Shown piece after piece: positions 317-63,930 of a stretch of 64,000 nt of DNA; positions within the stretch are counted from its first letter, which is position 1, and each line of letters starts with the position of its first letter. The notes under the pieces were generated by a model. The model ran no database searches. It was not told the DNA's origin and saw nothing but the letters and a program-made list of their open reading frames with translations. Source of the stretch: Brachycybe producta (taxonomy: Eukaryota; Arthropoda; Diplopoda; Playtdesmida; Andrognathidae); contig JAUPFP010000068.1 of the NCBI GenBank assembly GCA_036925085.1, positions 341,501 through 405,500 of the forward strand, in the 5' to 3' direction. The position numbers were made by a program, and so were the translations under genes.

Positions 317-522
317 ACAGGCAGTTAGAAATAGGTAAAAACTTCAGTTGGCGACGCCCTTTTTATGACGACCGGCAACTTCTAATTGGTTGGTTATGTA
401 GTCTGACGTCACATGCTCCGCCCTTTTCAACGTCGAACCACACAACAAACCAATTAGAAGTTGCCGGTCGTCATAACAAGGGCGGAGCTAACTGAAGTTC
501 TCCCCGATTTCTAACTGCCTGT
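317..522. mobile_element. ACAGGC-family MITE, 206 bp
   Basis: Near-complete inverted repeat with termini ACAGGCAGTTAG and CTAACTGCCTGT. Inner arms carry CGCCCTTTTTATGACGACCG and CCAATTAGAAGTTGCC. Flanks TACTTGAAT and CACTTGAAT form a 9-bp duplication with one mismatch. Confidence 0.9.
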
Positions 523-619
523 CACTTGAATAGGTTTTAGAAACTAGAAGGGTTAACCTCAATCACTTAGTGGCTGAATAAATATTTTGTTTTCGCCACC
601 CCCCCCCCCCTTCTACACC

Positions 620-1130
620 AAGATGACGCGCATGCGTGGCTATTATGTCCTATAGGAGCTATATCTTCTCTGGGAAAAAAAAAACGGTTTTGAGACAATG
701 TTGATATTTTTCAAGCGAACGTTTTTCAGGAGAAACATTACGAAAAAATGCAAAGTGTTTTAGAAACTAGAATAGTTGGTGATAATGCTAAACGTTTTTT
801 TCATTATAATATCTTTCAAAATAAACTTTTTATGACAAGTTTGAAAATGGCGGAAATAGTTTTTTTTCCCATGAAATTTCAATGGAAAAACCGAAAAAAA
901 AACCGGGTCATTTTAACAAACTGAACTATAAAATCGTTTATTTTTTAAGATATAGCCATGAAAAAAACTTAATATAATATTTTACCATTCTAGTTTTGAA
1001 AACAATTTGAATTTTTTTAATAACGCTTTTAAACGCAACGCTTGACGTGTTTTTGCTTCCAAATTTTCCAAAAACGTTTAATAAGAAATGCATTCGTCAC
1101 TGCAGTAGTGCCGTCTGGAGAGACGAAAGC
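620..1130. mobile_element. About 510-bp foldback with inner TCTAGTTT repeat, copy 1
   Basis: GCGCATGCGTGGCTATTATG near 630 is mirrored by GCATTCGTCACTGCAGTAGT near 1090. The inner arms run from TTTTAGAAACTAGAATAGTT (about 755) to CATTCTAGTTTTGAAAAC (about 1003). The same element recurs in direct orientation at about 60919-61440. Confidence 0.75.
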
Positions 1131-1152
1131 AAAATGAATATCTATTCAGCCA

Positions 1153-1505
1153 ACAAGCTAGTGTGCCCAGCATTAGAATTTCTTTTGCTCCGCCCCTTTT
1201 ATGAGCGTCATCAATTTCTAATTATTCATTACTGGGTCTGACGTCATAAAAGGGCGGCGAAAAAAATTCAAATGCTGGGCACAATTCCCACAGGCAATTA
1301 ATTTGAAAACGGGATAAAACAGAAGTTGACTCCGCCCATTTTATGACGACCGGCCACTTCTAATTGGTTGGTTATGTAGTCTTGACGTCACATGCTCCGC
1401 CCCTTTTCAACGTCGAACCACACAACAAACCAATTAGAAGTTGCGTGTTCGTCATAAAAAGGGGGCGGAGCCAACTTGTGTTCGTCCCGATTTCTACTTG
1501 CCTGT
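1153..1505. mobile_element. Composite of two MITE families inside one 9-bp duplication
   Basis: The left part (1153 to about 1289) belongs to the GTGCCCAGCA family and lacks its own right terminus. The right part (1290-1505) is an ACAGGC/AATTAG-family element with a complete CTTGCCTGT end. Flanks are ATTCAGCCA at 1144-1152 and ATTCAGCCA at 1506-1514, and no duplication separates the two parts. Confidence 0.8.
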
Positions 1506-2030
1506 ATTCAGCCACCTTAAATTTGAAAGAACGAAGCACCTTCCTCCCCCCCCCCCACCCTGAAAAATATATTTCACGGCCGACATCTTTTTTTTTTTTT
1601 AAAAAAAAAAGATTGTTAGAACTTCACACAAAAACCACCGAAACAAGAACAGAAAAAAAAGCGAACCAGGTCAAAAAATGTATTATACAAGAGAGAATGG
1701 GAATTAAAAGAAGGCCATTGACAGCCAGCCAGCCAGTTAGCCTCCTCCTCAGTCCTCATTTACACTCAAGTCAACCACGAGAGAAAGAAAGAAAGAATGA
1801 GAAAACTATGTCTTTCTTGTTGTTGCAAAACCAATTGTTTTCTCAAAAACGAAACAACAACCCTGACACTGTCACAATTAAGTAATAACTCAAAAACACA
1901 CAAGAAAAAAGATCTCTTGTTCTTATTTTTAAAACAAGAAAAGCCAACACAATCATTACCGATGGCGTTTATGCCGAGTGAGCATTTTCACAGAGCGGCG
2001 GCCGGCGACGACCCACAAACCTCAAATGAG

Positions 2031-2231
2031 ACAGGCACCTGTAGACAGCTTAAGAATTTTTTTTTTGGCTCCACCCTTTTATGAGCGTCAGACCAAATAT
2101 CAACCAAATAGAAATTGAAAATGGGCGGGGGCATGTGACATCAGACCCAGTAAAAAAAACCAATTAGAAATTGATGACGCTCATAAAAGGGCGGGGCAAA
2201 ACAAATTCTTAAGCTGTCTACAGATGCCTGT
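2031..2231. mobile_element. MITE of the CTGTAGACAGCTT family
   Basis: Termini ACAGGCACCTGTAGACAGCT and AGCTGTCTACAGATGCCTGT are inverted repeats. The core has CCACCCTTTTATGAGCGTCA and its inverted copy. Flanks share CCTCAAA but the duplication is imperfect. Confidence 0.85.
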
Positions 2232-2249
2232 CCTCAAACCCTTCAAATT

Positions 2250-2445
2250 AGCAGCCATCTGTAGAAAGCGCTAGTTTTTCGTATGCCCCGCCCTTTTGTG
2301 AGCGTCATCAATTTCTAATTGGTTTGTTGCTGGGTCTGATGTCACATGCCCCGCCCTTATCAATTTCTAATTGGTTGATATTTGGCCTTGACGCTTATAA
2401 AAGAGCGGGCGAAACAAAATCTTAGTGCTGGGCAGAACTGTCTCT
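2250..2445. mobile_element. MITE of the CAGCACTA/TAGTGCTG family
   Basis: Left arm GCGCTAGTTTTTCGTATGCC and right arm with CTTAGTGCTGGGCAGA. Inside are CGCCCTTTTGTGAGCGTCAT and TTGGTTGATATTTGG. It is closely related to the copy at 39335-39543; the ends are degraded. Confidence 0.75.
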
Positions 2446-2524
2446 GTTTCAAATTGCATACGTTTTAAAGGCCAGATTCGAAAATGGTTACGCGGAACTT
2501 AAGGTGGCTAAATAGATATTCGTT

Positions 2525-2730
2525 ACAGGCAATTAGAAAACGAGATAAACAGAAGTTGGCTCCGCCCTTTTTATGACGAACGGCAACTTCTAATTGGTTT
2601 GTTGTGTGGTTCGACATTGAAAAGGACGGAGAACGTGACGTCAGACTACATAACCAACCAATTAGAAGTTGGCGGTCGTCATAAAAAGGGCGGAGCCAAC
2701 TTCTGTTTATCCCGATTTGTAATAGTCCGT
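2525..2730. mobile_element. ACAGGC-family MITE with decayed right end
   Basis: Starts ACAGGCAATTAGAAAACG; the right terminus reads GATTTGTAATAGTCCGT. Arms and loop match the family, including TGACGTCA. No duplication is readable. Confidence 0.85.
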
Positions 2731-3468: not shown

Positions 3469-3672
3469 ACACGCATTTAGAAATCGGGACAAACATAAGT
3501 TGGCTCCTCCCTTTTTATGAAGAACGCAAATTCTAATTGGTTGGTTAGGTAGTCTGACGTCACATCTCCGCCCATTTCAACGTCGAACCCCACAACAAAC
3601 CAATAAGAAGTTGCCAGTCGTCATAAAAAGGGCGGAGCCAACTTCTGTTTATCCCGTTTTCTAATTGTCTGT
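3469..3672. mobile_element. ACAGGC-family MITE, diverged ends
   Basis: Ends ACACGCATTTAGAAATCGGG and TTTTCTAATTGTCTGT. The interior has CTGACGTCACAT and AACAAACCAATAAGAAGTTG. It carries substitutions relative to the family. Confidence 0.85.
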
Positions 3673-4066
3673 TCCCGAATGCCGTCCAATACCCTCCCCT
3701 CCAATGTCTGAAGTCGGCAATAAGTCGACATCCGTCTCGCGGCAATACTTGCGTGTCAAACTATCATCATTCAGCCAGCGTGAGAAGGCATAGCGTGGTC
3801 CCAAGCATCAGAGGACGCTTGTGACGTCAGAGGAATTTCAGATTGTTGTCATTTTTGTCAGATACAAAGAGATGATAAACATTTTCAACAATTTAAACAC
3901 AAGGGTTCTTTCGTGCCGAGGTTCTCGAGTTATTTCGTTATGCAAACAATTTTATGATTGACAAAAACGACAATCATAAATTTGTTGTTAATCCCTCTGA
4001 CGTCACAAGCTTCATCTAAGGGTGACGCAATAATATCTTCTAAATAGCAATAAATGCAGAAAAAAT

Positions 4067-4277
4067 ACACGCAATTAGAAATCGGGACATACAGAAGTTG
4101 GCCCCTCCCTTTTTATGACGACTGGCAACTTCTAATTGGTTTGTAGTGTGGTTCGACGTTGAAAAGGGCGGAGAGCATGTGACGTCAGACTACATAACCA
4201 ACCAATTAGTAGAAGTTGCCGGTCGTCATAAAAAGGGCGGAGTCAACTTCTGTTTGTCCCGATTTCTAACTGCCTGT
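4067..4277. mobile_element. ACAGGC-family MITE
   Basis: Ends ACACGCAATTAGAAATCGGG and GATTTCTAACTGCCTGT. Flanks are GAAAAAAT and GAAAAATT, so the duplication is only approximate. Confidence 0.85.
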
Positions 4278-4639
4278 GAAAAATTAATGTACAAACTCTA
4301 CTACGGAATGATCAATTTTCTGATTGCCAAGCCAGGATTGTCAAGCGAGAATTGATCGTCTGTGTACGTAGCCTAAACAGTCGAAAGCATAGACGGAAAA
4401 AACAATAAAAGTTGAATCGAATCGACAAAAATTGATCGTGTGAACCCAGCTTAACACCTGAGGTCATTGGGGTTATTCCTTCAATTAGAAACGATTAGCG
4501 TCAAAAATAAGAGGCCGCAGATGTATGGGCGCAAAGAGCGACTTTCCTAATCGAAAAACAAAATGAGTATTCTTTCGAATTAACTGCCGCTAGCCTCAAA
4601 GTCTAAGGTAAACGCTGCCGAGTTGTTAAATATACCTGG

Positions 4640-4856: not shown

Positions 4857-4949
4857 ATAGAGAGAGAGAGTTGCGGAAAATTAAGGCGCGAAAACAAGGT
4901 GATAAAAGCTGTACAACCTCTTGCATTGAGGCTACACCGCTTCTAATCA

Positions 4950-6505: not shown

Positions 6506-6646
6506 ACAGGCATCTGTAGACAGCTTCAGAATTTTTTTTGGTTCCACCCTTTTATGAGCGTCAGACCAAATATCAACCAATTAGCAATTGACGACACTCA
6601 AAAGGGCGGAGCCAAAGAAATTCTGAAGCTGTCTACAGATGCCTGT
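6506..6646. mobile_element. MITE of the CTGTAGACAGCTT family, shortened core
   Basis: Termini ACAGGCATCTGTAGACAGCT and AGCTGTCTACAGATGCCTGT. The core has CCACCCTTTTATGAGCGTCA but the middle is about 60 bp shorter than the copy at 2031-2231. Confidence 0.85.
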
Positions 6647-11691: not shown

Positions 11692-11886
11692 ACAGGTAGT
11701 TAGATATCGGTCAGAATTTCAGTTGGCTCCGCCCTTGTCATGACAACCGGCAGCTTCTAATTGGCTGGTTATGTAGTCTTTCGTTAAAAAGGGCGGAGCA
11801 CCTGATGTCAGACTACATAACCAGCCAATTAGAAGTTGCGGAAAAGCGAAGCCAACTGAAGTTCTGACCGATTTCTAACTGCCTGT
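11692..11886. mobile_element. ACAGGC-family MITE abutting the RPL6 promoter
   Basis: Termini ACAGGTAGTTAGATATCGG and CCGATTTCTAACTGCCTGT. Flanks are CTTCCGGTGTATGAC and CTTCCGGTGTGTGAC, a 15-bp direct repeat with one mismatch. This is longer than the 9-bp duplications of other copies. Confidence 0.88.
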
Positions 11887-20491: not shown

Positions 20492-20499
20492 ATAAAAGG

Positions 20500-39600: not shown

Positions 39601-42600
39601 TCGTATCCTTCCACTGGCACGAATGCTCTTTACGTCGGCCACCCAACCACCCTCTCATATATCAATTAGTGTTCACTGAGGCTTGTAATTTTCTCACTTT
39701 AATAAACAGATGATGACAGACTTAGTTTGTTACAGCATCCAAGCAAGCAAGTGCGCCCCCCCTTCCCCTTTTCCTTAGCCCTTCTTTCTCTCTCCCTCCC
39801 CCCCCCTCCTATCCAACCCCCCCTCCCTTCAATCTAATCCAATCAATGTCCAAATTCCCTCATCTGTTTATGATACATAACATCTGCCCAAAGCAATCCA
39901 TTTTGCTTTCAAACAAAATGGTGAAATGGTCCATGTAGTAGTTTAATATTTATTCCCTTGATGCGCGCAAACACATCAACGCCAGTGTTTATTAATTAAT
40001 AAACTCAAATTAAGTGATTTGCACAACTTGTAGACACAAAACGACCAAAACATATTTTTCAAAAAGAAAAAGAAGAAAAAAATGCAAAATTTATTGAAAA
40101 ATAATAGCAAAAATATGTTGACGCCATAATTGATCGTCTTCTAGCTGTTGAAAATTGCGTTCTCCATTTGGCTCATTATTAGTTTGCTACTAAACATTAT
40201 TAGATCAGCACCAACGGCGCCTCCGGCGGCGCACTCGCGTCTGCGACCCTTTTTCTATGCACATCAATTGCGACCTCAACAGCCTATGGTAAAATGATTC
40301 CCACCGGAAGTCCAGATCATCGTGATCCGAATTTAAAAAACATGTTTCAATTACATGATGAATAAATATATTCAAAAAATACAATTGCTAAAATATAGAA
40401 GACATTTTGCATTTAAGATGGAGGAATAGATGTTTATTTTGCTTTTGTCTTCTTAGAGGGCGCCACTGCAATGGCTAACGCTATGCTCCATAAACGTTTT
40501 TGTAAAAGCCCAGAGTAATCTGCAACGGCGGCGGCGGCGACAGCATCCTCTAGAACAGGCAATTAGAAATCGGGACAAACAGAAATTGACTCCGCCCTTT
40601 TTATGACGATCGGCAACTTCTAATTAATTTATTGTGTGGTTCGACGTTGAAAAGGGCGGAGCATGTGACGTCAGACTACATAACCAACCAATTAGAAGTT
40701 ACCGTTCGTTCTAAAAAGAGCGGAGCCAACTTGTTTATTCCGTTTTCTAATTGCCTGTTCCTCTAGAGCATGCTTGCTGCAGCAATCTCAGCGGAGCATC
40801 CTGAAGCCACTTTCTCCCCTATTTCAACAAGGAAGTGTTATGCCAGGGACACACATGCAGAAAACATGAAAGAAAACAGACAATTCTTCCGTTTTCAAGT
40901 GCAAGAAACATAAATGAACCAATAGGATTGTTGCTTGCAATGACGTCATCAAAACATTTTTGTAGACTCAAAGCAAACAAAACTGTAGAACACATGTTGC
41001 CTGTGTTTCACAATAGATGGCGTGTCACATTTCTGTTCAGCATGTGTGTTCATCACACGCAAACGTAAAAAGAAAACGAACAAAAATTTCTTTTGTTGCA
41101 ATGGTTTTCTTGTGTGTTTTCTGTTGTCTGTTTCTGCATGTGTGTCCCCCTGACTTTAGAAAGAAACAAAAGTTGGGAGAGGGGAGGAGGAAAAACACTT
41201 TTTTCGGTAACCTAAACTAAATGATCCTAACAGAACCTAACCGAAACGAACCTAATTTACTTTCAAAGAGAAAAAAAAAAGTGTTTTCCCACCTCCTCCT
41301 AACTTTATTTTGTTAAAATAAGGGAGAGACTGATAGCAGAATACTCGATGAGATTCCTGCTGCAGCATACTCTAGAGGATGTTGCTGCTGCTGCAGATTA
41401 CTCTGGGCTGCTCAGATTTCTACCACATATACAGTACCTTGAAGAGAGGCTATACAAATTAAAGCTCACTTACACTTTTTTTTCTCTCTAAAGCCTCGTT
41501 TTCACGATAGTTGCTATCATGAGAGCAGCAACTATTGCGAGAAGACGTGAAGACCACATGACAGTCACTATCGCCCACTGTCACGATAGCACTATCACAA
41601 CTATCCCGTTTGACTAGATAGTTGATAGTACTGTCGCGATAGTGATAGTTGTTGTGTGACAGCTTTGTAGGGAAAAATATCCACTTTGTAGGGAAATTTG
41701 GCTTTCTGGAGGGCGAGACAGAGGCAACACTGCTGTTGACACAATGATATCAATGAAGTAGACGTCACACTGTCACATGTGACAGAACTATCACGTTAAC
41801 TTCAAGACGTGTAGACAGTTGCTATCGTGATAGAGTGAACTATCGCAACTTTCATGACAGCTACTCTCACGATAGAACTATCGCCACCGTGAAAACGAGG
41901 CTTAACATATGAGTTGAACTACCTCTATGTATATATTAAGTTAAATAATAAAAGTGATGCTGTCATAAGAAAAACAGGGGGAGGGGGAGGAGAAAGCTAA
42001 GAAAGATGCTACTAGCAACCATTTTGGTTGCTAAGCAACCAAATTCAGTAAAAGATCTCTTCTGTTAGCTTATTAAATAAAGATGCTACAACAACATAAG
42101 AAAGAAAAGAAGAATTTGGCAAAAAAAAAAAACATTAAAAGGGGGAAAAAAGAAGATCATTTCTGTGTCTTTTTCTCTCTCAAAGTCAAGAGACTGTTTA
42201 TAGAAAGAAAAGTCTTAAATTCTAAAAGATAAAATTGTCTTAACAGAAAGAAACAACAAGAAGAAATTTATGAGACTCTCTCTCTCTCTCTCTCTTTTTC
42301 ATTTCTTGTTTTTTGACAGCTGTTAATGAATGGAAAACACCTGCAAATTGTAATCCTTTTCAAGAATCTCTTTAAAAACATTTGTTTTGACAGCCATTTT
42401 ATTTTATTACACTTTTTTTTTTTTAAAGACAAACAAAAAATGGTTTTGTCTTTAACAAAAAAACATTTACAAGGCGGAGGGAGGAGAAACATTTACACAC
42501 AAATTAGAAAAAAAAGGGTCAAAATACTTAAAACAGTATTTTTTTTTAAAAAAAAATCCACATCTTTTAAGATATTTAAAGAGACCATTCATTAACTCCA

Positions 42601-45600
42601 GAAATTTCTTTGTCAAAATATTGTCAAGAATTATATTCAACGATTACCCAAAACGATTTTTAAAATTTAAAATAAGTGATTTTAATGTAATTTAAAAAAT
42701 TAAAAATCAGTTGACTTCATGTGAAATGAACTTTATCAGATAGATGCGCCACCAAACAACGGACATTGGCAACAAACCTCCCCCAAAGTCTACTCCTCTA
42801 CTCGAATTCTAATGTGTTGTCTGTCACCTCACAGGCAATTAGAAATCGGGAAGAACATAAGTTGGCTCCGCCCTTAGTTATGACGACCGGCAACTTTTAA
42901 TTGGTTGGTTGCGTGGTACGACGTTGAAAAGGGCGGAGCATGTGACGTCAGACTACATAACCAACCAATTAGAAGTTGCCGGTCGTCATAAAAAGGGCGG
43001 AGCCAACTTCTGTTTGTCCCGATTTCTAATTACCTGTGTCACCTCACATTACTTTCATTTGAATTACTAACATTTGAAATTTTGAATGATTCCACACATG
43101 GAAGGTTGTATTCAGTTGAATATGAATAGGGAATACCTATATTTCATAAAGGATTTCTGCCTTTGCCACAAAAATGGCGGACGGAGGCTTTCGTTTTTGG
43201 AAATTTAAAATGGCGTCGTTTGGTGACTCAGGAAAAGTCACTTCATTTTCAAGTTTTTTTTATGGTTTCAATGATTTATTTTAAATTTTAAAAATCGTTT
43301 TGGCAATCGTTGTGTAAGTCTTGACAATATTTTAAAAAGAAATTTCTGGAGGTAATTATGGTCTCTTAAGGTGGCTGAATATATATTTAATTCAAAAGCC
43401 CCCCCCCCCCAAAAAAATGGCCTCCGTTCTGAACAATGACAGCCATGACAGTTGTTTTGAATTACTCTTTCTCCTGTTGTTGTGGTTGAGGGTTTTTTTT
43501 AAAAAAAAGTTAAGAAAAAATAATTATTTTCATCCTAAAGTTTAGAAAAAACAAAGATTCCTGTGGGTTCCCCCCTATTGTATAGATGGGGTGCTGGGAG
43601 AAAGGGGCAGAGACAAGAGAGATGGGTGAAGAAGAAAAAAATGAAACTAAAAACAACATAAATTTATTGTTTTTCAAAAATAGGGGGAGGGGGGGGGGAA
43701 TGCCGAACGGAATATTAAAAATACATTTGTGTTTTACAAAAAAAAAATAAGTAAAAGAAGCAACAGAAGCCACCTTATTTCCACCCATTTTTCAATCTCC
43801 ATCCGCTTTTCCCCCCTAAGCCTACATATGTTGTAGAAAATTCATCTACCCTGATAAATCTCCTATTTGGATAAACGCTCTAGCCTCCTCTTACAGCCCT
43901 TTCGCACCTTTGTTAGACTGGCAGTGTGCATTGGAAATCCAAAATAACAAATCCCACAGTTCGGTTCTCTCATAAATGAGCCACAAGGCTCATCAACATG
44001 AAATGACCCTTAAAGCGACCGGTACACACCTCCGGAAGTTTACTTTCAAAATATTGTCAAGAGATTTACCCAATGATTGCCAAAATAATTATTTTTTAAA
44101 TTTTAAATAAGTAAATATAATTAAAAATCAATTAATTTCATATAAATGGACTTTATCAGATAGATGCGCCACCAAACAACACACATTGGCAACAAAATCC
44201 CAAAGTATACTCCTCTACTCGAATTCTGATGTTGTCACCTAACATCACCTTTTAATTCCCTATTCAAATACACGTATTTCCTATTCGTTTCAAAGTACAT
44301 GGATTTAATATTCGAATTATCTCCACCTGCCCACGTGGCTCTCGAGTTGATTGGAAAGTTGTATTGAGTTGAGTATGAAATGGGAAATAGATGTATTTGA
44401 TTCAGGAATTATGGAAATGTGAGGTGACAACATTTGCCACTAAATTAAGGGGGAGACGTTCGGTTTTTAAAAATTTAAAATGGCGTCGTTTGGTGATTTT
44501 TGTAATTTTAATGTCGTGCCGCAACTAGGAATTTTGTGCCCGGAGACTATATTACTGTGAACGCCCCCCTTACCTCCCTAACAGCTAGCTACTCACACAA
44601 ATTTGAGTAGTTTGTATATAGTGTGATTAAATGTGAATTTTCAGGCTCACAAGTGTTAGCTTAAAATAAAAACCTACTATATATTCTCTTTAGTATAAGT
44701 ATTGCTTATAGCAGAGCCTACAACTTTTTGTAAATTTTGCAAATTGCACGACGGGTTTACTAGTCTGAGTAATTTGTACAATACATGAAAACTACTAAAT
44801 TAATGTGGAATAAAGAAAATAGTGGGGGGGGGGGGAAGTATAATTTCAAAATTTATAAGTCATTATTAAATTTTAATTTCTAAACGTTTGGGCGCCCGAA
44901 GATTAACTTTTCTCCATCCTCCTCGTTGTTGCGCCACTGCCTCCAATAGCAGAAATCTCGCTAATAGCAACATTTTCGACACCGCATATACATAGACATA
45001 CATGTAAATAATATATTGATCACATTTTTATCATCCGTCCGTCGTCTTCTCAAAACTGCAGAGTTGAAAATTGAAAGAAAAAAAAACGGGGGAAGAAAGA
45101 AGTTGCCAGAGAAACGTAAAAGAGAGATAGACATTTGGTATTAGAAGCACGTAAATAAAGAAAACAGATAACACACATATATGTGTATATTATATGCATA
45201 AAAGAAGCTCAAGAAAATTGGATAAAATATTCTTCAAAAATATATATATATCTTGAGCTCGTTTTAATTTTCATAAGAAACTCATCTTTTTTTTTTTTTG
45301 GAATATAATAATATTCAGAATGAGTGGAAGAGAAGAAGAAGAAAAAAAAAACAAAAAAACAAATAAAATATATGAAGTTTGAAAATTGAAGCAGAGGCTA
45401 CACTGTATAATTTATATTGAGGATGAATTCAAACCATGTGACTTTCGTGTGACCTTCACAGCCAACGACCTTTGTATAACCTTTCATCATTGCATAAACT
45501 TTTAATTCAATTCAACTCAGTACAATTGTAAAATCAGCTCGTGAGCCACGTGGCAAAGGAGGGAAGGGAGAAAATAGGGGAGAGGAGGAGGAAAAGAGGG

Positions 45601-47018
45601 GGGGGGGGTACGCTGTACCTTTTCTATTTCATGCAGTAGATTTAAACTCGGAAAAGAATTGCAAAATTGGGGAACAATATTCTAATAGTGATCTGACGAG
45701 AGTAATACTTGGTACACACAGCTGATAATTTAAATGCATTTAAATAATAAACGTGTTCTACAGAGCCCTGTTAAGGACAAACAAACAACATGTCGAATTC
45801 AATTTATTCAGTTAATAATCTGAAAATATTCTGTTAATTAACTTAAACATAATCAGATAAACTATTGACATTAAAATATTGATTTAGTATTTCAATTTAA
45901 AATATTAATAATAAAGTCAAGTTTTATTTGGTTGATGTGTCCTTAACTGGATACCGTATAATTCACCTAAACACATTTAATTTGAATTCATTTAACTCAT
46001 GTGTGTACCAAGGTATAAAATAACTACGGATGGAACATTCAAATCCTCGAATCCCGCGAATCTTGAAAAATATTCGAGATTCGATTTCTCGAAAGGAGAA
46101 AAAATATTCGAGATTCGAATCCTCGAATCTTGAAAAATATTCGAGATTCAAATCCTCGAATCTTGAAAAATATTCGAGATTCAAATCCTCGAATCTTGAA
46201 GCGTTCACTAACAAAAAAAACGGCGATTGTTGCAATTTCGGTGGTTATCCGGATCACCAATGAATTACCTTGTGGCAGCGACCCTGAGTCCACACTTGTT
46301 TTTTATTATTAATTTAATATTTAATATTATCTTCTTAAGGAATAATATACGATTCTTATATGAAGGATTCGAGAAATTCGAGAACCTTTTAGGATTCGAG
46401 AAAATTTAGGATAAAATAAGAGAACTCTCTTACATTTTACAATATTTCAAAGTTCGTTGTACGAACTGCAGCCTTTAAATGTTGCATAACCTATATTGAC
46501 CTCAAAATGACTTTCTAAATAACAAGATTACCTATGAAGGTCACACCTTCAAATGACTACAGCGTGACCTTCCCATTAAAGATGACAACTTTTGAAATGA
46601 TCGCAAATTAAGACTCAAACCTTTTTTACTTACAAAAACGCTAAAAAAATTTCATCAAAAATGAACTGAAGATGATTTTAAAGTATTAACGTGGCAAATT
46701 TGACCTTCGTGACATTGGAATCACCTTCAAACACTGAAAGACCCTCAATAGGATGAGACTTGTTAGAGGCTATAATAGGCAAGTGTGTGCCCAGCACTAA
46801 AATGTCATTCGCCCCGCCCTTTTATGACATCAGACCAAGTAACAAACCAATTAAAAATTGATGGCATTCACAAAAGGGGCGGGGCAAACGAAATTTTAGT
46901 GCTGGGCACAATTTGCCTGTGAGGCTATATCGGGGTTCAGCAATTTAAAACAATTCAAAGAGAGGGACTTACGTTTTGGAGCTGCCGTTGTGAAGAGATC
47001 GGACCCAGTGTCAGACAC
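29497..47018 (-). CDS. AUTS2 / tay-bridge family protein, 13 exons, 5' end missing
   Basis: Nuclear regulator. Vertebrate AUTS2 is a subunit of PCGF3/5-type PRC1 complexes and recruits P300. Exons (minus strand): 47018-46973, 36830-35885, 35064-34924, 34833-34529, 33906-33707, 33179-33135, 33038-32925, 32810-32781, 32208-32022, 31938-31858, 31781-31671, 31057-30706 and 30610-29497. They sum to 3672 nt, one frame of 1223 aa plus TAA. Family blocks in order: SDTGSDLF, GMFAPP, LRRELDNRFLASQ, a His-X repeat, [63 protein letters not shown] and DPFRDPYRSLD. These correspond in the same order to human AUTS2 and FBRSL1. Pro/His/Gln/Ser-rich low-complexity sequence fills the remainder. Upstream exons were not recognised in 47019-64000. 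The absence of a precise orthology test keeps the symbol blank. Confidence 0.93.
30706..31057 (-). CDS. AUTS2-like exon with WNRLHRTP block, charged coil and 18-Ala run
   Basis: A 352-nt exon. [18 protein letters not shown] matches the human [18 protein letters not shown] segment. It continues into an Arg/Glu/Lys-rich helix of about 45 residues, then an uninterrupted run of 18 alanines encoded by mixed GCN codons (about 30737-30792), then more Lys/Glu. Acceptor choice (GAGAG|CA) is set by phase; neighbouring AGs are possible. Confidence 0.88.
31160..31345. repeat. TCTAGTTT-family fragment in AUTS2-like intron
   Basis: GAGACTAGAAGAGTAAACGA and CATTTCAAACTAAACTTTTT, with an inverted GCCATAAAACGTTTATTTTA arm. 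Confidence 0.55.
32022..32208 (-). CDS. AUTS2-like conserved core exon (RWCAMHV block)
   Basis: Encodes [22 protein letters not shown], then SDLIRPPSHLF and RPHHDLTSLMGPG. This is the most diagnostic block of the AUTS2/FBRSL1/tay family (human KWCAMHVHIAWQIYHHQQK). Acceptor TTTTGTTAG, donor CCCG|GTAAGA. Confidence 0.95.
32781..32810 (-). CDS. AUTS2-like 30-nt micro-exon
   Basis: A 10-codon exon (MTPLVKTKNM) with acceptor TTTAATAG and donor ATG|GTAAGT. It is phase 0 on both sides and lies between the LAAFQPK exon and the RWCAMHV exon. In human AUTS2 a longer segment occupies this place. Confidence 0.75.
33135..33179 (-). CDS. AUTS2-like 45-nt exon
   Basis: Encodes [15 protein letters not shown]. 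It is flanked by acceptor TAATTTTCAG and donor ACG|GTAAAC. It corresponds to FDKYPTKVDPFYRH in human AUTS2. It is too short for ORF calling and was recovered from family knowledge and phase. Confidence 0.85.
33707..33906 (-). CDS. AUTS2-like exon with the His-X repeat
   Basis: A 200-nt exon encoding QADLLRRELDNRFLASQ, PPPPYMRTE, then HQHQHQHTHLHQHSH and PPPTPHL. The order and wording match the human AUTS2 segment containing its HX repeat, a region implicated in P300 binding. Donor TTG|GTAAAA is preferred over later GT sites because it keeps phase with the FDKIPK exon. Confidence 0.88.
34080..34462. repeat. CGTGTTAAACGGTTTTCACTG repeat cluster in AUTS2-like intron
   Basis: Several alternating inverted and direct pieces of TTTTCGTGTTAAACGG and GAAAACATTTCGTGTTA. 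They end in GGTTTTCACTGTA, matching the pogo-like MITE at 27296-27790. Confidence 0.65.
35100..35800. repeat. Irregular tandem repeat in AUTS2-like intron (four copies)
   Basis: CTCGAAACGATAGTCGTTTC at about 35107 recurs in diverged form at 35249, 35443 and 35648. Each is followed by ACCAAAAGCATCACAGACGA-like sequence and a TTAGAAACTAGAA piece. Spacing is 142, 194 and 205 bp. Confidence 0.7.
35885..36830 (-). CDS. AUTS2-like large low-complexity exon (Pro, Gln, His, Thr rich)
   Basis: A 946-nt exon with acceptor TTTTCTGTAG. It encodes REITNHIGNSLFPN, then PTPTP repeats, two polyglutamine runs (longest about nine), His-rich runs, and Thr/Ser-rich segments including twice-repeated RPPTPHSA. 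No folded domain is seen. The CAA/CAG and CAT/CAC runs are interrupted, so the tract is not a pure repeat. It is likely intrinsically disordered. Confidence 0.85.
36940..37700. repeat. Degenerate tandem repeat (about 40-50 bp) with perfect palindrome
   Basis: Phrases like CAGGAATTGTCTCAAATGTC and TCTACGAGCCTCAG recur throughout. At 37234-37288 a 26-bp arm (ACCCTAAAGAATGGCTTTAA...) is mirrored with a 3-nt loop. It lies in the 10.1-kb AUTS2-like intron next to the large exon. Confidence 0.7.
38318..38898. repeat. Polypurine minisatellite, GGGGAAAGAGATAGAAAGA units
   Basis: About 580 bp of nearly pure purine on the plus strand. The 18-32 bp units all contain GGGGAAAGAGATAGAAAGA with variable (AAAGA)/(GAGATA) extensions. 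Long mirror-symmetric purine tracts of this kind can form triplex DNA; formation here is inference. Confidence 0.95.
38942..39147. mobile_element. ACAGGC-family MITE with 9-bp duplication CATAGAGAC
   Basis: Starts ACAGGCAATTAAAAATCGAG; the right end is mutated to TTATTGAATGT. CATAGAGAC occurs at 38933-38941 and 39148-39156. Confidence 0.92.
39170..39277. mobile_element. GTGCCCAGCA-family MITE, internally deleted
   Basis: ACAGGCAATTGTGCCCAGCA on the left, GTGCACACTTGCCTGT on the right, with a core of CGCCCTTTTATGACGTCAGA. The inverted CGCCC block is missing on the right. Confidence 0.8.
39335..39543. mobile_element. CAGCACTA-family MITE
   Basis: ACAGACAGTTCTGCTCAGCA on the left, AGTGCTGGGCAGAGATGCCT on the right. 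The core has TCCGCCCTTTTATGAGCGTC and CATGCCCCGCCCTTTTCAAT. A 16-bp G run sits in the right arm. Confidence 0.85.
40507..41411. mobile_element. About 900-bp foldback carrying nested insertions
   Basis: CCCAGAGTAATCTGCAACGG with GACAGCATCCTCTAGA on the left mirrors TCTAGAGGATGTTGCTGCTG and GCAGATTACTCTGGG on the right. Nested inside are an ACAGGC MITE (40555-40758) and an inverted repeat of AGGGACACACATGCAGAAAA (40846) with TTTCTGCATGTGTGTCCCCC (about 41130). Confidence 0.75.
40555..40758. mobile_element. ACAGGC-family MITE with 9-bp duplication TCCTCTAGA
   Basis: Termini ACAGGCAATTAGAAATCGGG and TTTTCTAATTGCCTGT. TCCTCTAGA occurs at 40546-40554 and 40759-40767. Confidence 0.93.
41489..41905. 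mobile_element. 417-bp foldback, TAAAGCCTCGTTTTCACG termini, copy 1
   Basis: TAAAGCCTCGTTTTCACGAT mirrors ACCGTGAAAACGAGGCTTA. The interior is built of repeated CTATCGTGATAG-like palindromes. The second copy is at 60504-60895. Confidence 0.88.
42577..43369. mobile_element. Foldback with GAGACCATT...GGTCTC arms, interrupted by an ACAGGC MITE
   Basis: AGAGACCATTCATTAACTCC with AGAAATTTCTTTGTC on the left mirrors GAAATTTCTGGAGGTAATTA and GGTCTCT on the right. Inner arms include GATTACCCAAAACGATTTTT and its complement. The MITE at 42831-43037 splits it. A second copy at about 44030-44520 lacks that insertion. Confidence 0.85.
42831..43037. mobile_element. ACAGGC-family MITE inside a foldback
   Basis: Termini ACAGGCAATTAGAAATCGGG and GATTTCTAATTACCTGT. 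GTCACCTC flanks both sides exactly (8 bp; probably 9 with one base lost). The paralogous site near 44230 reads GTTGTCACCTAACATCACC with no insert. Confidence 0.93.
44030..44520. mobile_element. Second copy of the 42577 foldback, without the MITE
   Basis: Shares CAAAATATTGTCAAGA, AGATAGATGCGCCACCAAAC and CTCCTCTACTCGAATTCTGA with 42610-42815, and AAATGGCGTCGTTTGGTGA with 43209-43227. The right end is shorter. Confidence 0.8.
44530..45700. other. AUTS2-like intron, no feature of note
   Basis: AT-rich with a G run at 44823-44834, AT microsatellite pieces near 45180-45250 and a G run at 45599-45608. No reading frame or repeat family was recognised. Confidence 0.5.
45708..46012. mobile_element. 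Foldback of the ACAGAGCCCTGT family, copy 2
   Basis: CTTGGTACACACAGCTGATA mirrors AACTCATGTGTGTACCAAGG. It contains CTACAGAGCCCTGTTAAGG, TCAATTTATTCAGTTAATAA and CCTTAACTGGATACCGTATA. Confidence 0.85.
46041..46199. repeat. 33-bp self-complementary tandem repeat
   Basis: AATCTTGAAAAATATTCGAG followed by ATTCAAATCCTCG repeats four times, the last copies exact. Because CGAATCTTGAA and TTCGAGATTCA are near-complements, each unit is itself a hairpin. The 33-bp length keeps frames open on both strands. Confidence 0.9.
46775..46920. mobile_element. GTGCCCAGCA-family MITE with 9-bp duplication GAGGCTATA
   Basis: ATAGGCAAGTGTGTGCCCAG to GCTGGGCACAATTTGCCTGT, 146 bp. GAGGCTATA occurs at 46766-46774 and 46921-46929. 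It lies just 3' (53 bp) of the most upstream AUTS2-like exon. Confidence 0.92.
46973..47018 (-). CDS. AUTS2-like exon encoding an acidic SD-type motif (most 5' exon found)
   Basis: A 46-nt exon with acceptor TTTGTTTCTCAG and donor AAAC|GTAAGT. It encodes VSDTGSDLFTTAAPK and a split Arg, matching in position the ASDASSEKLFNT segment of human AUTS2. Its phase 1 end fits the GG start of the exon 10.1 kb downstream. Short length makes this the least certain exon. Confidence 0.75.
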
Positions 47019-47203: not shown

Positions 47204-47291
47204 ACAGGCAATTAGAAAACGGGATGAACTGAAGTTGTCTCCGCCCTTTTTATGACGAAAGCAACTTCTAATTGGTTGGTTTTGTAGTACG
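47204..47291. mobile_element. Left half of an ACAGGC MITE, truncated
   Basis: ACAGGCAATTAGAAAACGGG through CTTCTAATTGGTTGGTTTTG, then the sequence changes abruptly to the 47294-48022 foldback. The right half is not present at the far side. Confidence 0.75.
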
Positions 47292-47293
47292 AG

Positions 47294-48022
47294 TTTTAAG
47301 AGGCTACAAAGCAAATCGTTTTTATATCGACCCCATAGACGCGGCAATATATTTATTTTTTCATATTTAAAGTTGTCCAATATAAAGTTTTCAAAGTGCA
47401 ATGTGCACCTTAAATATATGCTGATCAAGTGATAAAATGACAAAAAATTGGAAAGTGCGGTTCTATTTTTAAAAAGTATTTCAAAATCGCGAATTTCTAA
47501 CACTTATGTTAAACTCCATTGAGTATGTGCTCGTAAGCAAAAAACATCCATTAATAATGCTCGTAAAAATACCTAAAAATAATTTTAAAAAACCAAAAAA
47601 TAAGCAGCACGTGCGCCAATGTGTTGGCTTCACTGTGGTTTAATTGTGGTTTTTTTAAAAATTATGTTTACTAACATATTTAATGGATGTTTTTTTGCTT
47701 ACGAGCGCGTACTCAATGGAGTTTAACATAAGAGTTAGAAATCCACGATTTTCAAATAGATTTTAAAAATAGAAGCACACTTTCCAATTTATTGTCATTC
47801 TATCACCCAATTAGCATATATTTAAGGTGCCCATTGCACTTTGAACCATCAAAATTGGACAACTTTAAACATGAAAAATAAACAAATTGCCGCCGCGACT
47901 GTGTGTATTTTAAAAATGAACGTTTTTTCTTTAACATCGGGTCTATGGGCTCAATAGAAAAAAACGATGCTAGCGCTCGTTGCGGAGATTTTTCAAAGTA
48001 ATTTTGCGATGTAGCCTTTTAA
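47294..48022. mobile_element. About 730-bp foldback
   Basis: TTTTAAGAGGCTACAAAGCA mirrors TTGCGATGTAGCCTTTTAAA. Large inner arms match, e.g. AACTCCATTGAGTATGTGCT (47513) and CGCGTACTCAATGGAGTTTA (about 47707). Confidence 0.85.
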
Positions 48023-48986: not shown

Positions 48987-49182
48987 ACAGGCAAGTAAAG
49001 ACAGTAAGATACAGTCGTTTGCTCCGCTCCTTTTATGAGGACTGGCAACTTCTAATTGGTGTGTTATGTGGTCTGATGTCACATATCCCGCCCTTTTCTA
49101 TCTCCAATTGGTCTCCAATTTGGTCTGAAGCTCATAAAAGAGCGCGGCAAACGACTGTATCTCCCTGTCTTTACGTGCCTGT
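48987..49182. mobile_element. ACAGGC-type MITE (AAAGACAG subfamily) with 9-bp duplication CTGTAAATG
   Basis: ACAGGCAAGTAAAGACAG to CTGTCTTTACGTGCCTGT. The arms contain CAGTCGTTTGCTCCGCTCC. CTGTAAATG occurs at 48978-48986 and 49183-49191. Confidence 0.9.
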
Positions 49183-53732: not shown

Positions 53733-54444
53733 ACAGGTAATTAGAAATCTGGATAAGCAGAAGTTGGCACCGCCTCTTTTTATGACTGGCAACTTCTAAT
53801 TGGTTGGTTATGTAGTGTGACGTCACGTGCATGCTCCGCCCTTTTTAATGTCCAACCACACAACAAACCAATTAGAAGTTGCCAGTCGTCATAAAAAGGG
53901 CGGAGCCAACTTCTGTATGTCCCGATTTCTAATTGAATCTGATACTCCCCCCTTCAAAGTTTCTCCCGTGGGAGCAACAAAGACAGGCATTTAGAAATCG
54001 GAACGAACTTCAGTTGGCTCCGCCCTTTTTATGACAACCGGCAACTTCTAATTGGTTGGTTATGTAGTCTGACGTCACATGCTCCGCCCTTTTCAACGTC
54101 CAACCACACAACAAACCAATTAGAAGTTGCCGGTCGTCATAAAAAGGGGCGGAGCCAACTTCTGTATGTCCCGATTTTTAATTGAATATGATATTTCACT
54201 CCCCCCCTTTTCAAAGTTTCTCCCGTGGAAGCAACAAAGACAGGCATTTAGAAATCGGGACGAACTTCAGTTAGCTCCGCCCTTTTTATGAGGACCGGGA
54301 ACTTCTAATTGGTTTGTTGTGTGGTTGGACGTTGAAAAGGGCGGAGCATGTGACGTCAGACTACATAACCAACCAATTAGAAGTTGCCGGTCGTCATAAC
54401 AAGGGCGGAGCCAATTGAAGTTCGTCCCGATTTCTAAATGCCTG
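53733..54444. repeat. Tandem triplication of an ACAGGC MITE plus spacer
   Basis: Three MITEs in direct series start at 53733, 53993 and 54240. They are separated by near-identical spacers containing TTCAAAGTTTCTCCCGTGG and AGCAACAAAG. The third has an intact right end followed by AGCAACAAA, a 9-bp match to 54230-54238. Confidence 0.9.
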
Positions 54445-54449
54445 AGCAA

Positions 54450-55380: not shown

Positions 55381-55386
55381 TAAACT

Positions 55387-55592
55387 ACAGGCAGTTAGTA
55401 ATAGGTCAAAACTTCAGTTAGCTCCGCCCTTGTTATGACGACCGACAACTTCTAATTGGCTGGTTATGAAGTCTGAAATCACATGCGCCGCCCTTTTCAA
55501 CGTCAGACTACATAACCAGCCAATTAGAAGTTGCCAGTCGTCATAACAAGGGCGGAGCCAACTAGCGTTTTCACCTATTTCTAACTACCTGT
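55387..55592. mobile_element. ACAGGC-family MITE
   Basis: ACAGGCAGTTAGTAATAGGT to CCTATTTCTAACTACCTGT. Flanks GTTTAAACT and TTTAAAACT suggest a 9-bp duplication with changes. Confidence 0.88.
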
Positions 55593-56079: not shown

Positions 56080-56220
56080 ACAGGCAGTTGAGCGCAGCCA
56101 GAAAAATTCTGTTAGCTCCGCCCATTTATGAGCATCAGACCAATAACAAACAGAATCAAACACGTAACAAACCTAAATAACCAATCAGAACGAACTTTTC
56201 TGGCTGCGCCCAACTACTTC
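56080..56220. mobile_element. MITE of the GCGCAGCCAGAAAA family, copy 1
   Basis: ACAGGCAGTTGAGCGCAGCC with AGAAAAATT on the left, and TTTTCTGGCTGCGCCCAACT on the right. Core CTCCGCCCATTTATGAGC. Flanks TGCTCAGAG and TGCTCAAGAG are similar. Confidence 0.83.
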
Positions 56221-56320
56221 TGCTCAAGAGCCACCAAAGGTAATTCTTTTGTATATGTGATTACAATCATACAATTATCACAAAATCATTGCTCCACAAA
56301 ATCGCCTACTGTACTATTGC

Positions 56321-56514
56321 GAGTGTGCTCAGCAGAATAGTCGTTTGCTCCGCCCTTTTATGAGGAACAGCAACTTCTAATTGGTTAGTTAATTGGTCAA
56401 TGTCACATGCCCCGCCCATTTTCAATTTCTATTTGGTTGATATTTTGGTCTGACGCTCATAAAAGGGCGGGGGTAGGGGAACGAACGACTAATCTGCTGA
56501 GCACACTTGCCTGT
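56321..56514. mobile_element. MITE with GTGTGCTCAGCAGA arms
   Basis: GTGTGCTCAGCAGAATAGTC mirrors CTAATCTGCTGAGCACAC, ending TTGCCTGT. The core has TCCGCCCTTTTATGAGGA and GACGCTCATAAAAGGGCGGG. It belongs to the same superfamily as the 39335 copy. Confidence 0.82.
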
Positions 56515-59018: not shown

Positions 59019-59231
59019 ACAGACAATTAGAAAACGGGATGAACAGAAGTTGACTCCGCCCTTTTATGAAGAACGGCAACTTCTAATTGGTTTGTTGTGT
59101 GGTTCGACGTTGAAAAGGAAGGAGAGCATGTGACGTCAGAGTCAAACTATATAACCAACCAATTAGAAGTTGCCGGTTGTCATAAAAAGGGTAGAGCCAA
59201 CTTCTGTTCATCCCGTTTTCTAATTGCCTGT
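59019..59231. mobile_element. ACAGGC-family MITE with 9-bp duplication CTTGATTAC
   Basis: ACAGACAATTAGAAAACGGG to CCCGTTTTCTAATTGCCTGT. CTTGATTAC occurs at 59010-59018 and 59232-59240. Confidence 0.93.
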
Positions 59232-59309
59232 CTTGATTACGTTGGGTGTATTCATTTTCTGAGCACCTCTTTTTTGCGCTCGTTGCTCGTTTGAAGCCCA
59301 CTCACAACA

Positions 59310-59416
59310 CAGATGAGCGTCATCAATCTCTAATTGGTTTGTTACTTGGCCTGATGTCACATGCCCCGCCTTGTTCAATTTCTAATTGGTTCTTATTTGG
59401 TCTGACGATCATAAAT
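59310..59416. mobile_element. Internal fragment of a CAGCACTA-family MITE
   Basis: GATGAGCGTCATCAATCTCT, then CATGCCCCGCCTTGTTCAAT and TTATTTGGTCTGACGATCAT. Termini are missing on both sides. Confidence 0.7.
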
Positions 59417-59573: not shown

Positions 59574-59781
59574 ACAGGCAAGTAGAAATCGGGACAAACA
59601 GAAGTTGGCTCCGCCCATTTTATGACGACTGGCAACTTCTAATTGGTTGGTTATGTTATATGACGTCACATGCTCCGCCCTTTTCAACGTCGAACCACAC
59701 AACAAACCAATTAGAAGTTGCCGTTCGTCATAAAAAGGGCGGAGCCACAACTTGTGTTCGTCCTGATTTCTAATTGCCTGT
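59574..59781. mobile_element. ACAGGC-family MITE with 9-bp duplication GTATTGTGT
   Basis: ACAGGCAAGTAGAAATCGGG to TGATTTCTAATTGCCTGT. GTATTGTGT occurs at 59565-59573 and 59782-59790. Confidence 0.93.
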
Positions 59782-61518: not shown

Positions 61519-61837
61519 AGACTACAGAGCCCTGTAAAGGTCTTGCGAGATTTTTTTTTTTTAAATCTCGACATGTCGACATTTAATTTGTTTTATTCGG
61601 CCATGTTAATTATGCCATGTTGCGCGCACCATACTCATAATTAAAGTATTGCAAGCGCCCTCTTTTAGCAGCAATAATTTAATTATTAAGAGTATGGTGC
61701 GCCCAACATGGCATAATTAACATGGCCGAATAAAACAGATTAAATGTCGACATGTAAAGCCCTGTAAAGGACATTCGAGAATTTTTTTTAAAAAAATCTC
61801 GAATGTCCTTTACACTACAGGGCTCCGTATAGTGGAC
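61519..61837. mobile_element. 320-bp foldback with ACAGAGCCCTGTAAAGG ends
   Basis: ACTACAGAGCCCTGTAAAGG mirrors CCTTTACACTACAGGGCTCC. Long inner arms ATTCGGCCATGTTAATTATG and CATAATTAACATGGCCGAAT pair almost perfectly. Confidence 0.85.
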
Positions 61838-61839
61838 CA

Positions 61840-62590
61840 ACTTGATTTCCAACTTCTCCCACAGATTTAATAAGAAAAAAAGTCTCGATATTTTTCTATG
61901 TAAAAACGCGCCAGTTTTTGCTCTTCCCAACATCCATAACTAATTCTTATTAAGTTTAATAATAACAAAAAAATGAAATTTTAAATTATAAAGAAAAGAA
62001 TGAAAAAAACTCTTAAACCGGAAAAGATTTAAGTTGAAAACCGTGAAGTAGAAAAAGAAATCAAAATATTAAAAAAAAAAACAGCTGAAGCAAAGAAAAA
62101 AGGATTCAAAAGTTTACATCGATTTTAAGCTTGAATTTCAGCTTCGCTTTTTTTTTTCTTTTCTTGTCAGAAATACCAATTTTAAAAATCTTCTTAGAAG
62201 AGAAAAAAAAAACTCAATAGAAAAAAATATCTAAAAACACTTTTCCATCCATTGAGAATTGACTACATTTTTTTTTGTTCTTGTTTCCAATTGAACCTGA
62301 ACTTTCTATCTCATCTTATTGATTTGCTTCTTTTTTGTGTTGTTGCAACAATGTTGTTGAATGTTTTTTTTTTTAATTTTTTATTGAATTTACAGACAAT
62401 TTTCAGACATTTTTTTAAAGCTTTCTTGAGAGTTGTGAGGGCCAGTTAAACCTTAGACTATTACTTTACTGGACTGGCAACTCCCTATCTTCTCCATGTT
62501 AAAGCATTGAATGCATGTTCTTAGGCAAAAGTGATGCCAGCTCCGTCTGGTGCATAATTTTTTTACAGAAAATCGGAGTGAAAGTCTGTT
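61840..62590. other. No gene recognised
   Basis: A/T homopolymer-rich sequence with no supported frame or repeat family. Confidence 0.5.
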
Positions 62591-62596
62591 TTTATT

Positions 62597-62715
62597 TTGT
62601 GTGGTTCGACGGTGATTGATGTGACGTCAGAGTACATAACCAACCAATCAGAAGTTACGTTCGTCATAAAAAAGGCGGAGCCAACTTGTGTTCGTCCCGA
62701 TTTCTAAATGCCTGT
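62597..62715. mobile_element. Right half of an ACAGGC-family MITE
   Basis: GTGTGGTTCGACGGTGATTG through GATTTCTAAATGCCTGT. The left arm is absent. TGACGTCA is retained. Confidence 0.8.
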
Positions 62716-62719
62716 ACCA

Positions 62720-63487
62720 AATGGGCACAGATCCAGACCTGTTCTCGGAAGCAGGCCATTTCGGATAGCCCGAATATCAATTTCAAAACACCAGTTGTTG
62801 GTTAACTTAAAAGTGCTTTAGTTTGAAGAAGAAGAAAGAAAAAACTAAAAGTGACATGATTCGTGTCACAATAAAGTCAATCTCTAAGTACTTTTGTGCA
62901 ACAACCCAATTCTAAAAAGAAAAAACGCAGCATTTCAAAAAAAAAAAAAAAAAAAAAAAAAACAGCCAAGAATAAAAAAAAAATCGCCTAAAAAACTATA
63001 CCATAACTTCATCCCTGATCCTCCCCTTTCAACCTCACTCTTTTTTTCCAACCAACCGACCAACAACAGAGAGAATAATAAGAAAAACTTTCATAGAAAA
63101 AGGACCAAACCCTCCCTTTTAACAATTTGAAACGTATTATTATGACATGCTCAAAGGTTGAGTGAGCACATCTTAAAAAAAAAACCTCAACGTAAAGAAA
63201 TAATAAACATACACACAGTCAGATATATATATAGGAATTTTTGATCCTTTTTCTTGAAAGACATTGATCTGTATTTGACACAACATCAAACAAAAGAAGA
63301 AGAAAAACCTCTCAAAAGACCAAAAAGAAGAAAGTGCAAAATCACCAATAACAAACCTACTTGCAAAATACAACCAAAAAAAAAACCGCCCTATCATCAA
63401 AAAAAAATTCATAAAAGATCGGTCTACTCTCGTCCATTCCCTTTTCATTCTTAACTTATCGCCGCCATCTTGTGACAGATACCTCCT
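62720..63487. other. No gene recognised
   Basis: Contains an A run of about 24 at 62938-62961 and generally A-rich sequence. Nothing supported. Confidence 0.5.
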
Positions 63488-63696
63488 ACAGGTAGTTAAA
63501 AATAGGTGAAAACTTCAGTTGGCTCCGCCTTTTTTTTATGACGACCGGCAACTTCTAATTGGTTGGTTATGTAGTCTGACGTCACATGCTCCACCCTTTT
63601 CAACGTCGAACCACACAACAAACCAATTAGAAGTTGCCGGTCGTCATAACAAGGGCGGAGTCAACTGAAGTTTTCATCTATTTCTAAACTGCCTGT
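63488..63696. mobile_element. ACAGGC-family MITE
   Basis: ACAGGTAGTTAAAAATAGGT to ATCTATTTCTAAACTGCCTGT-type end. The core has TGACGTCACATGC. Flanks share only CTCCT. Confidence 0.88.
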
Positions 63697-63792
63697 CTCC
63701 TTCATTTCCTCAACAGGGCTCCGTATAAAGAGGCCTGGAGTTCAACTTGGATTACTAACGTGGTTCCAATGCCACTGCCAACGCTCAACAAC

Positions 63793-63930
63793 ACAGCCAG
63801 TTGGGCGCAGCCAGAAAAATACCGTTAGCCCCGCCCTTTTATGAGCATCAGACAAATAAAAAACAGAATCAAACACGTCACAAACCTAAATAACCAATCA
63901 GAACGAACTTTTCTGGCTGCGCCCAACTGC
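63793..63930. mobile_element. MITE of the GCGCAGCCAGAAAA family, copy 2
   Basis: CAGTTGGGCGCAGCCAGAAA mirrors TTTTCTGGCTGCGCCCAACT. The core CCCGCCCTTTTATGAGCATC and ATAACCAATCAGAACGAACT match copy 1 at 56080-56220. Confidence 0.85.

Follow-up and report, generated by a model that had tools for sequence, protein, structure and literature searches.

Short foldback elements with ACAGGC ends and mostly 9-bp target-site duplications crowd a Brachycybe producta contig and are likely moved by a Mutator-like transposase

Results

The stretch of Brachycybe producta DNA analysed here (the window: 64 kb, G000:C68:341501-405500, from an assembly of 295.3 Mb in 442 contigs) is crowded with short palindromic elements that start with ACAGGC and finish with GCCTGT, or with decayed forms of these ends. 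They are transposed elements flanked mostly by 9-bp target-site duplications, and we conclude that they are non-autonomous, foldback-type miniature inverted-repeat transposable elements (MITEs), probably served in trans by a transposase, likely that of a Mutator-like element (MULE). The hallmarks of MITEs are present, the elements being short and non-coding, with inverted ends, thousands of termini and a duplication of near-constant length; a unit of about 200 bp has no room for a transposase gene.

Element architecture and families

About 30 elements in 29 intervals make up 8.7% of the window (Table 1), somewhat more than the "about 25 copies" of an earlier note on this DNA. Single units are 108-216 bp long (mostly 110-215 bp), and some 35 nt in from the end lies a box, CTCCGCCC-TTTT(T)ATGA. 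The common 206-bp type amounts to two arms set head to head and reads, from the end inward, ACAGGC, about 29 nt that differ by family, the box CTCCGCCCTTTT(T)ATGA, TTCTAATTGGTT and, often, TGACGTCA at the centre. Self-comparison of the window returned repeat families of about 200 bp (D4-D9, D11-D15). ACAGGC occurs 46 times in the window, against 15.0 +/- 4.1 expected, and CGCCCTTTTATGA at up to 2 mismatches 20 times, against 1.8 expected. Fuzzy matching of the full signature (ACAGGC, 20-48 nt, CTCCGCCC, TTTATGA) gave 43 matches in the window and, in ten order-1 Markov controls, 0, 0, 2, 0, 0, 1, 0, 0, 0 and 0; since three of the 43 (3457, 39155 and 46765) each read a neighbouring match a second time, we count about 40 termini. 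The enrichment and the signature counts bear out the earlier description of a group of inverted-repeat families with a common terminus and box.

It is the stretch of about 29 nt behind ACAGGC that differs by family and defines families A to F: A[AGT]TTAGAAA[AT]CGGGA...GAAGTTGG in A, GTGCCCAGCATTAG... in B, CTGTAGACAGCTT... in C, AAAGACAGTAAG... in D, GCGCAGCCAGAAAA... in E and GCTCAGCACTA... in F. What had been described as one family, "CAGCACTA/AAAGACAG", turned out to join two, namely D at 48987 (AAAGACAG) and an F/B-like type (GCTCAGCACTA/GCCCAGCACTA). Elements with two readable ends have both from one family, the nested pair at 1153-1505 being the exception. The palindromes are imperfect, with a self-complementary identity of 0.59-0.83 in 22 of the 23 listed intervals; the remaining interval, 56080-56514 (0.56), is really two elements. 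The window has 27 copies of TGACGTCA where 0.5 would be expected, 17 of them inside the elements and 10 outside. Two more palindrome-like repeats, at 3800-4025 and 4630-4860, have arms of the GTGACGTCAGAGG...TCTGACGTCAC type, carry TGACGTCA and apparently represent another foldback family.

Target-site duplications

Flanks were compared for 50 end pairs, 25 from the window (with 1153-1505 and its inner part entered separately) and 25 from 29 genome loci, four of which had no recognisable ends and were set aside; because of their common flank, L005 and L006 are not independent. Exact duplications measured 9 bp in 14 pairs, 8 bp in four, 5 bp in one and 10-14 bp in none, and at up to one mismatch a 9-bp duplication flanks 18 of the 50 pairs, against 0.5 after shuffling. 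Within the window, six of the 25 pairs match at 9/9 and two at 8/9, and the element at 38942 is also exact at its corrected end. Among the eight duplications spelled out in the earlier note, six are exact and flush as written (ATTCAGCCA, TCCTCTAGA, GAGGCTATA, CTGTAAATG, CTTGATTAC and GTATTGTGT), CATAGAGAC is exact given a decayed right end GAATGT at 39147, and AGCAACAAA has to be corrected by a one-base shift to GCAACAAAG/GCAACAAAC, 8/9.

A cleaner set came from contig C1, on which 27 family A pairs, both ends exact and separated by 170-220 bp, were counted by hand among the terminus matches listed; eight were omitted before their flanks were seen. In the resulting 19 copies the duplication is an exact 9 bp in nine, 9 bp with one mismatch in four and an exact 8 bp in one, with a shuffled expectation of 0.65 at 9 bp. 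The other five are without a clean duplication, and two of these (L094 and L101) look by eye like duplications with an inserted base. The 9-bp length is thus largely constant (up to one mismatch in 13 of the 19 intact-end copies), as first proposed, and the lack of any consistent length, which the earlier note had named as evidence against itself, was not seen. Across 30 listed duplications T stands 14 and 15 times at positions 2 and 3, and A 16 and 12 times at positions 7 and 8; the insertion targets are weakly symmetric.

Finally, 77 partly overlapping stretches (313 kb) were scanned for near-ACAGGC end pairs with an exact 9-bp duplication. The scan gave 35 such pairs: 29 span 146-216 bp, the 353-bp composite at 1153-1505 was counted twice (window and L001), three are multi-MITE arrays (389, 448 and 479 bp), and one 1,198-bp pair with mismatched ends (9/24) was taken as chance.

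Abundance in the genome

The 21-nt family A terminus has 3,201 + 3,344 = 6,545 exact matches in the genome, and a looser A-type pattern, ACAGGCA-N25-32-CTCCGCCCTTTTTATGA, has 2,620 + 2,625 = 5,245; either pattern reversed has 0. The family E terminus has 35 + 32 exact matches, and inspection of the list found no two of these 67 ends less than 20 kb apart on one contig. The window holds 5 exact and 7 looser A-type matches, against genome means of 1.4 and 1.1 per 64 kb, and is therefore unusually rich (about 3.5-6 times the genome average); by rough extrapolation from this one rich window, the genome would hold about 30,000-52,000 termini, that is about 15,000-26,000 palindromes. Copies are dispersed over contigs, and sampled family A copies are on average 11.5% off a common consensus, which mixes subfamilies.

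Nesting and local rearrangement

At 1153-1505 an A-type element lies inside the right end of a B-type element, and the surrounding duplication ATTCAGCCA probably belongs to the latter. Genome-wide, the junction pattern of this composite is matched exactly only 6 times. We considered that the 353 bp might be a hybrid moving as a unit, with A and B sharing a transposase, and dropped this reading because L104 shows plain nesting (by eye, A sits within the final bases of a B end and CACTTGCC stands on either side) and because, among the junction copies, only that of the window (L107) has the outer duplication. At L008 (1476-2000), 25 bp of the left flank of a MITE are repeated inverted on its right side, and beyond them a second MITE finishes at the duplication of the first; this suggests a hairpin-mediated inverted duplication, palindrome hairpins being a probable cause of such local rearrangements. 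At L027 a MITE copy has been locally duplicated.

Search for the mobilising transposase

Genome profile searches were made with PF10551 (MULE), PF12762 (Merlin/IS1595 domain), PF20700 and PF00867 (XPG_I). PF10551 gave 21 matches, none with an internal stop. One MULE, found on C13 (L033+L052) and C28 (L034+L053), is 4.17-4.19 kb long, its copies being 99.45% alike over 4.19 kb, and has terminal inverted repeats (TIRs; 70 bp, 91%) starting ACTAGCGTCTGGAGG (ACTAGCG...). The C28 copy has an exact 9-bp duplication, AAAGAAGAT, and the C13 copy CCTTTTATC/CCTATTATC, 8/9; this genome has thus seen, apparently in the recent past, the movement of a MULE that makes 9-bp duplications. In its protein the MULE domain is accompanied by a weaker match of ZSWIM1-3 type; two related MULEs also have C2H2-finger matches, near the cut-off or below it.

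For fourteen of the 21 MULE loci the reading was extended about 2-2.7 kb past either side of the 3.2-kb locus (past a single side for C13 and C28), with the three C1_21.9 genes read as one run, and these sequences were searched for inverted ends that bracket the gene and have an exact duplication of 8-10 bp. Only C28 gave a convincing end pair; weak pairs at C43, C1_5.03, C1_14.99, L042 and L043 agree at 15-16 of 24 bases, none of them starting with ACAGGC, and were taken as chance. Three MULE-domain genes (L036, L037 and L039) are about 94% alike, with a RING-like cysteine pattern seen by eye in L037, and element ends were looked for around them in the flank scan and not found. The other seven loci are one near-identical family on C2, C5, C38 and C89, with ACAGGC, in the 3.3 kb read at each, only inside the gene. 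These genes (L045-L051) are at least 99.4% alike and have a sub-threshold SWIM-finger match; on C2, C5 and C38 they lie head to head on the two sides of a palindrome.

MITEs near several MULE genes are independent insertions, one of them with its own duplication. The MITE adjoining the MULE gene on C32, tried as a TIR, is complete and has its own duplication, GTTATAAAA; the A-type MITEs upstream of the gene at C89a and C89b, with GCCTGT toward it, were likewise set aside as neighbouring insertions. The nearest miss was C89b, where a B-type left end (1670) and a 34-bp B-type right end (5312), 3.6 kb apart, flank a MULE gene; the left end belongs to a complete MITE and the flanks hold no duplication (attcaggat vs gaattttgc), which rules the pair out. 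We also observed that, at the joined C43 locus (5300-7170) and at C89b (5312), a repeated unit, CCCGTCATAAATGACGGGAGCAAAATTC and its variants, abuts ACAG(A/G)CAATTGTGC ends in three places; it is a flank common to separate ends. The joined C32 locus (L064+L040+L065) contains, at about 6510-6710, a short palindromic MITE with ends ACTAGCATTTGGATACTAGAG and inner GCGCATGCGCATTGG, and by eye this element (ACTAGC...GCGCATGCGCATTGG) resembles the TIR of the C28 MULE, which makes that MULE a candidate partner for this second group of MITEs.

PF20700 has 53 matches in the genome, and four of these loci were read for ends: three were without ACAGGC/GCCTGT, and L078 has two ACAGGC without MITE sequence behind them. 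The four (L076-L079, on C107, C259, C49 and C134) encode PF20700 "Mutator" proteins, with a YqaJ exonuclease domain too in L077. In L076, L077 and L079 the end of the gene adjoins CCTAACCTAACC telomere-like repeats, the type suggesting an arthropod telomere repeat, and these genes possibly belong to a telomere-associated transposon. PF12762 found 0 candidates in the genome (six-frame, exon by exon), the same search having given a signal in 1 of 14 control genomes.

Genomic setting

Besides the elements listed in Table 1, the window contains an aldehyde dehydrogenase exon at 19.5 kb (PF00171 profile match) and, at 29-37 kb, long low-complexity reading frames, which we take to resemble an atrophin gene; the one frame that was scanned had no profile match. 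In a phage search with a MITE pair the best E was 0.5 in the best 20 of 23 records and was taken as chance.

Table 1. Elements and flanking duplications in the window (window coordinates; strand is given as "." for all elements but 47204..47310)
Position	Strand	Assignment	Duplication or basis
317..522	.	Family A (AGTTAGAAATAGG/CGGGG ends)	TACTTGAAT/CACTTGAAT, 8/9
1153..1289	.	Family B (GTGCCCAGCATTAG)	Right end cut by A element
1144-1152 and 1506-1514		Outer duplication of 1153-1505	ATTCAGCCA
1290..1505	.	Family A	Sits in right end of B element
2031..2231	.	Family C (CTGTAGACAGCTT)	No flush 9-bp duplication
2254..2450	.	F/B-like, ends decayed	Self-comparison family D12
2525..2730	.	Family A	No duplication; used as genome query
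3469..3672	.	Family A, decayed left end	Self-comparison and signature
4067..4277	.	Family A	No duplication
6506..6646	.	Family C	No duplication
11692..11886	.	Family A	15-bp near-duplication CTTCCGGTGTATGAC/CTTCCGGTGTGTGAC, 14/15, where 9 bp is the rule
38942..39147	.	Family A	CATAGAGAC, exact with decayed GAATGT (39147) taken as right end
39170..39277	.	Family B, short	Self-comparison and signature
39335..39543	.	Family F (CTGCTCAGCACTA)	Self-comparison and signature
40555..40758	.	Family A	TCCTCTAGA, exact
42831..43037	.	Family A	8 bp, GTCACCTC, exact
46775..46920	.	Family B	GAGGCTATA, exact
47204..47310	+	Family A, left half	Signature; inner limit by eye
48987..49182	.	Family D (AAAGACAG)	CTGTAAATG, exact
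53733..53941	.	Family A	Self-comparison and signature
53983..54189	.	Family A	Self-comparison and signature
54240..54445	.	Family A	GCAACAAAG/GCAACAAAC, 8/9
55387..55592	.	Family A	7/9
56080..56238	.	Family E (GCGCAGCCAGAAAA)	Signature; right end by eye
56325..56514	.	F/B-like (GTGCTCAGCAG)	Signature; left end by eye
59019..59231	.	Family A	CTTGATTAC, exact
59282..59403	.	F/B-like core, ends lost	Self-comparison family D12
59574..59781	.	Family A	GTATTGTGT, exact
62515..62715	.	Family A, decayed left arm	Self-comparison and signature; left end by eye
63488..63696	.	Family A	Self-comparison and signature
63793..63930	.	Family E	Signature; right end by eye

Discussion

We infer a MULE as the likely mobiliser because of the duplication length, the long arms, the presence of a 9-bp-duplicating MULE in the same genome and the apparent absence of Merlin. 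The duplications have the length usual for MULEs (8-10 bp, mostly 9), and the preference of the earlier note for Mutator over Merlin is strengthened by the empty PF12762 search and by MULEs with open frames, one of them with an exact 9-bp duplication. As no transposase was found between ACAGGC ends in the loci examined and the resolved MULE has other termini, we file the elements as MITEs and do not claim membership of the MULE superfamily for them. Since the arms meet in the middle of the 206-bp palindrome, the TIR length of a parent element cannot be read from them.

Several results weigh against a MULE partner. The TIR of the C28 MULE bears no likeness to the MITE arm (97.6% of shuffles score as high); at none of the 14 MULE loci read with flanks is the gene enclosed by ACAGGC ends that have a matching duplication, and the other seven, at 3.3 kb each, show no MITE-type ACAGGC end. 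The check that the earlier note had asked for, a transposase between ACAGGC ends with their own duplication, was run and yielded none where examined. A partner as old as copies diverged by 11.5% should leave recognisable remains, and none were seen. Duplications of 8 bp, the length seen in Merlin and hAT, also occur, and the profile searches did not take in hAT, P, KDZ or Harbinger. A partner with ACAGGC ends could have been missed or lost, or could reside in another genome.

The best surviving alternative, which we hold unlikely, is another or an undescribed DDE superfamily with 9-bp duplications (Academ-like, for example), its autonomous copies lost or outside the profiles. The MULE loci examined provided no partner, the searches covered four profile families, and 49 of the 53 PF20700 matches lay outside the inspection of ends, all of which would agree with such a source. 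Academ carries XPG, so that a multi-copy XPG-bearing gene would be expected, but PF00867 has only 4 matches at about three loci, with no expansion. Moreover, 8-10 bp is the normal range of MULEs (PMC5225508). It is rather doubtful that the ACAGGC families owe their spread to a transposase lineage outside the searched profiles, one tolerant of a freely varying stretch of about 29 nt between the fixed 6-bp end and the fixed CTCCGCCC-TTTTATGA box; such tolerance would let one end architecture give rise to several families with different inner ends. Membership of hAT, whose duplication is 8 bp, was rejected on duplication length, 9 bp dominating over 8 here; its transposase was outside the profile search. 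That the elements are passengers of a Merlin (IS1016/IS1595-type) transposon is improbable: Merlin ends start with GG, and the whole genome gave no PF12762 candidate. Merlin duplications come near in length (8 bp according to PMC10045372), and some copies here have exactly 8 bp, but exact 9-bp duplications stand to exact 8-bp ones as 14:4 in the 50 pairs and 9:1 in the 19 copies. Least credible of all is that the elements are segments of a larger repeat or satellite rather than transposed units, a view that the local duplication at L027 and the inverted flank duplication at L008 might favour, but that is already refuted for most copies by duplications that vary between sites (L005/L006 excepted, which have a flank in common) and are flush at ACAGGC/GCCTGT in dispersed copies.

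A transposase acting in trans most probably bound the family-specific stretch, the box or both, as their conservation suggests, and brought the two ends together. Insertion would have taken place at a 9-bp (sometimes 8-bp) staggered cut, the repair of which would have left the duplications, and movement was presumably cut-and-paste. The TIRs of MULEs reportedly contain both promoters and sites for the transposase (PMC3310237), and the promoter-like words in the MITE arms would fit this.

Known systems offer close parallels. Tm1, a Mutator/Foldback group of root-knot nematodes, has 8-10 bp, mostly 9-bp, duplications in 45 of 53 complete elements, and shares with the present elements MITE-like members, inverted arms and short terminal motifs, with no clear target consensus in Tm1; in contrast, a Tm1 member encodes a Phantom-type MULE transposase, whereas none was found between the ends here, and the arms of Tm1 are composites of varying length, whereas the layout of the common type here is fixed, with one box (PMC3169594). 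In Aedes aegypti, all 14 families of Muta1 and other MULEs have duplications of 8-9 bp, 12 of the 14 have TIRs above 100 bp, and some have hundreds of non-autonomous derivatives, a further likeness. Most long Muta TIRs, however, contain tandem repeats in subterminal position, and the TIR of the derivatives is that of a known autonomous element, a link not found here, where the copy number is higher (PMC5225508). The C13/C28 MULE resembles the MITEs in its 9-bp duplication and inverted ends; it differs in that its ends, ACTAGCG, have 4 of 6 bases in common with ACAGGC, with no further similarity of the arms. MITE families with ACAGGC ends were not met in the literature searched for ACAGGC and MITE terms, repeat databases being outside that scope. 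These are new families of a known kind, and what they display is ordinary transposon biology at high density.

The partner transposase is a concrete and testable gap. If the MULE assignment is true, a MULE-type MITE group has filled this genome with short palindromes. Many of these palindromes carry CCAAT, TGACGTCA and GC-box-like words, which makes them sites at which the diversification of MITE ends and the seeding of regulatory DNA may be studied.

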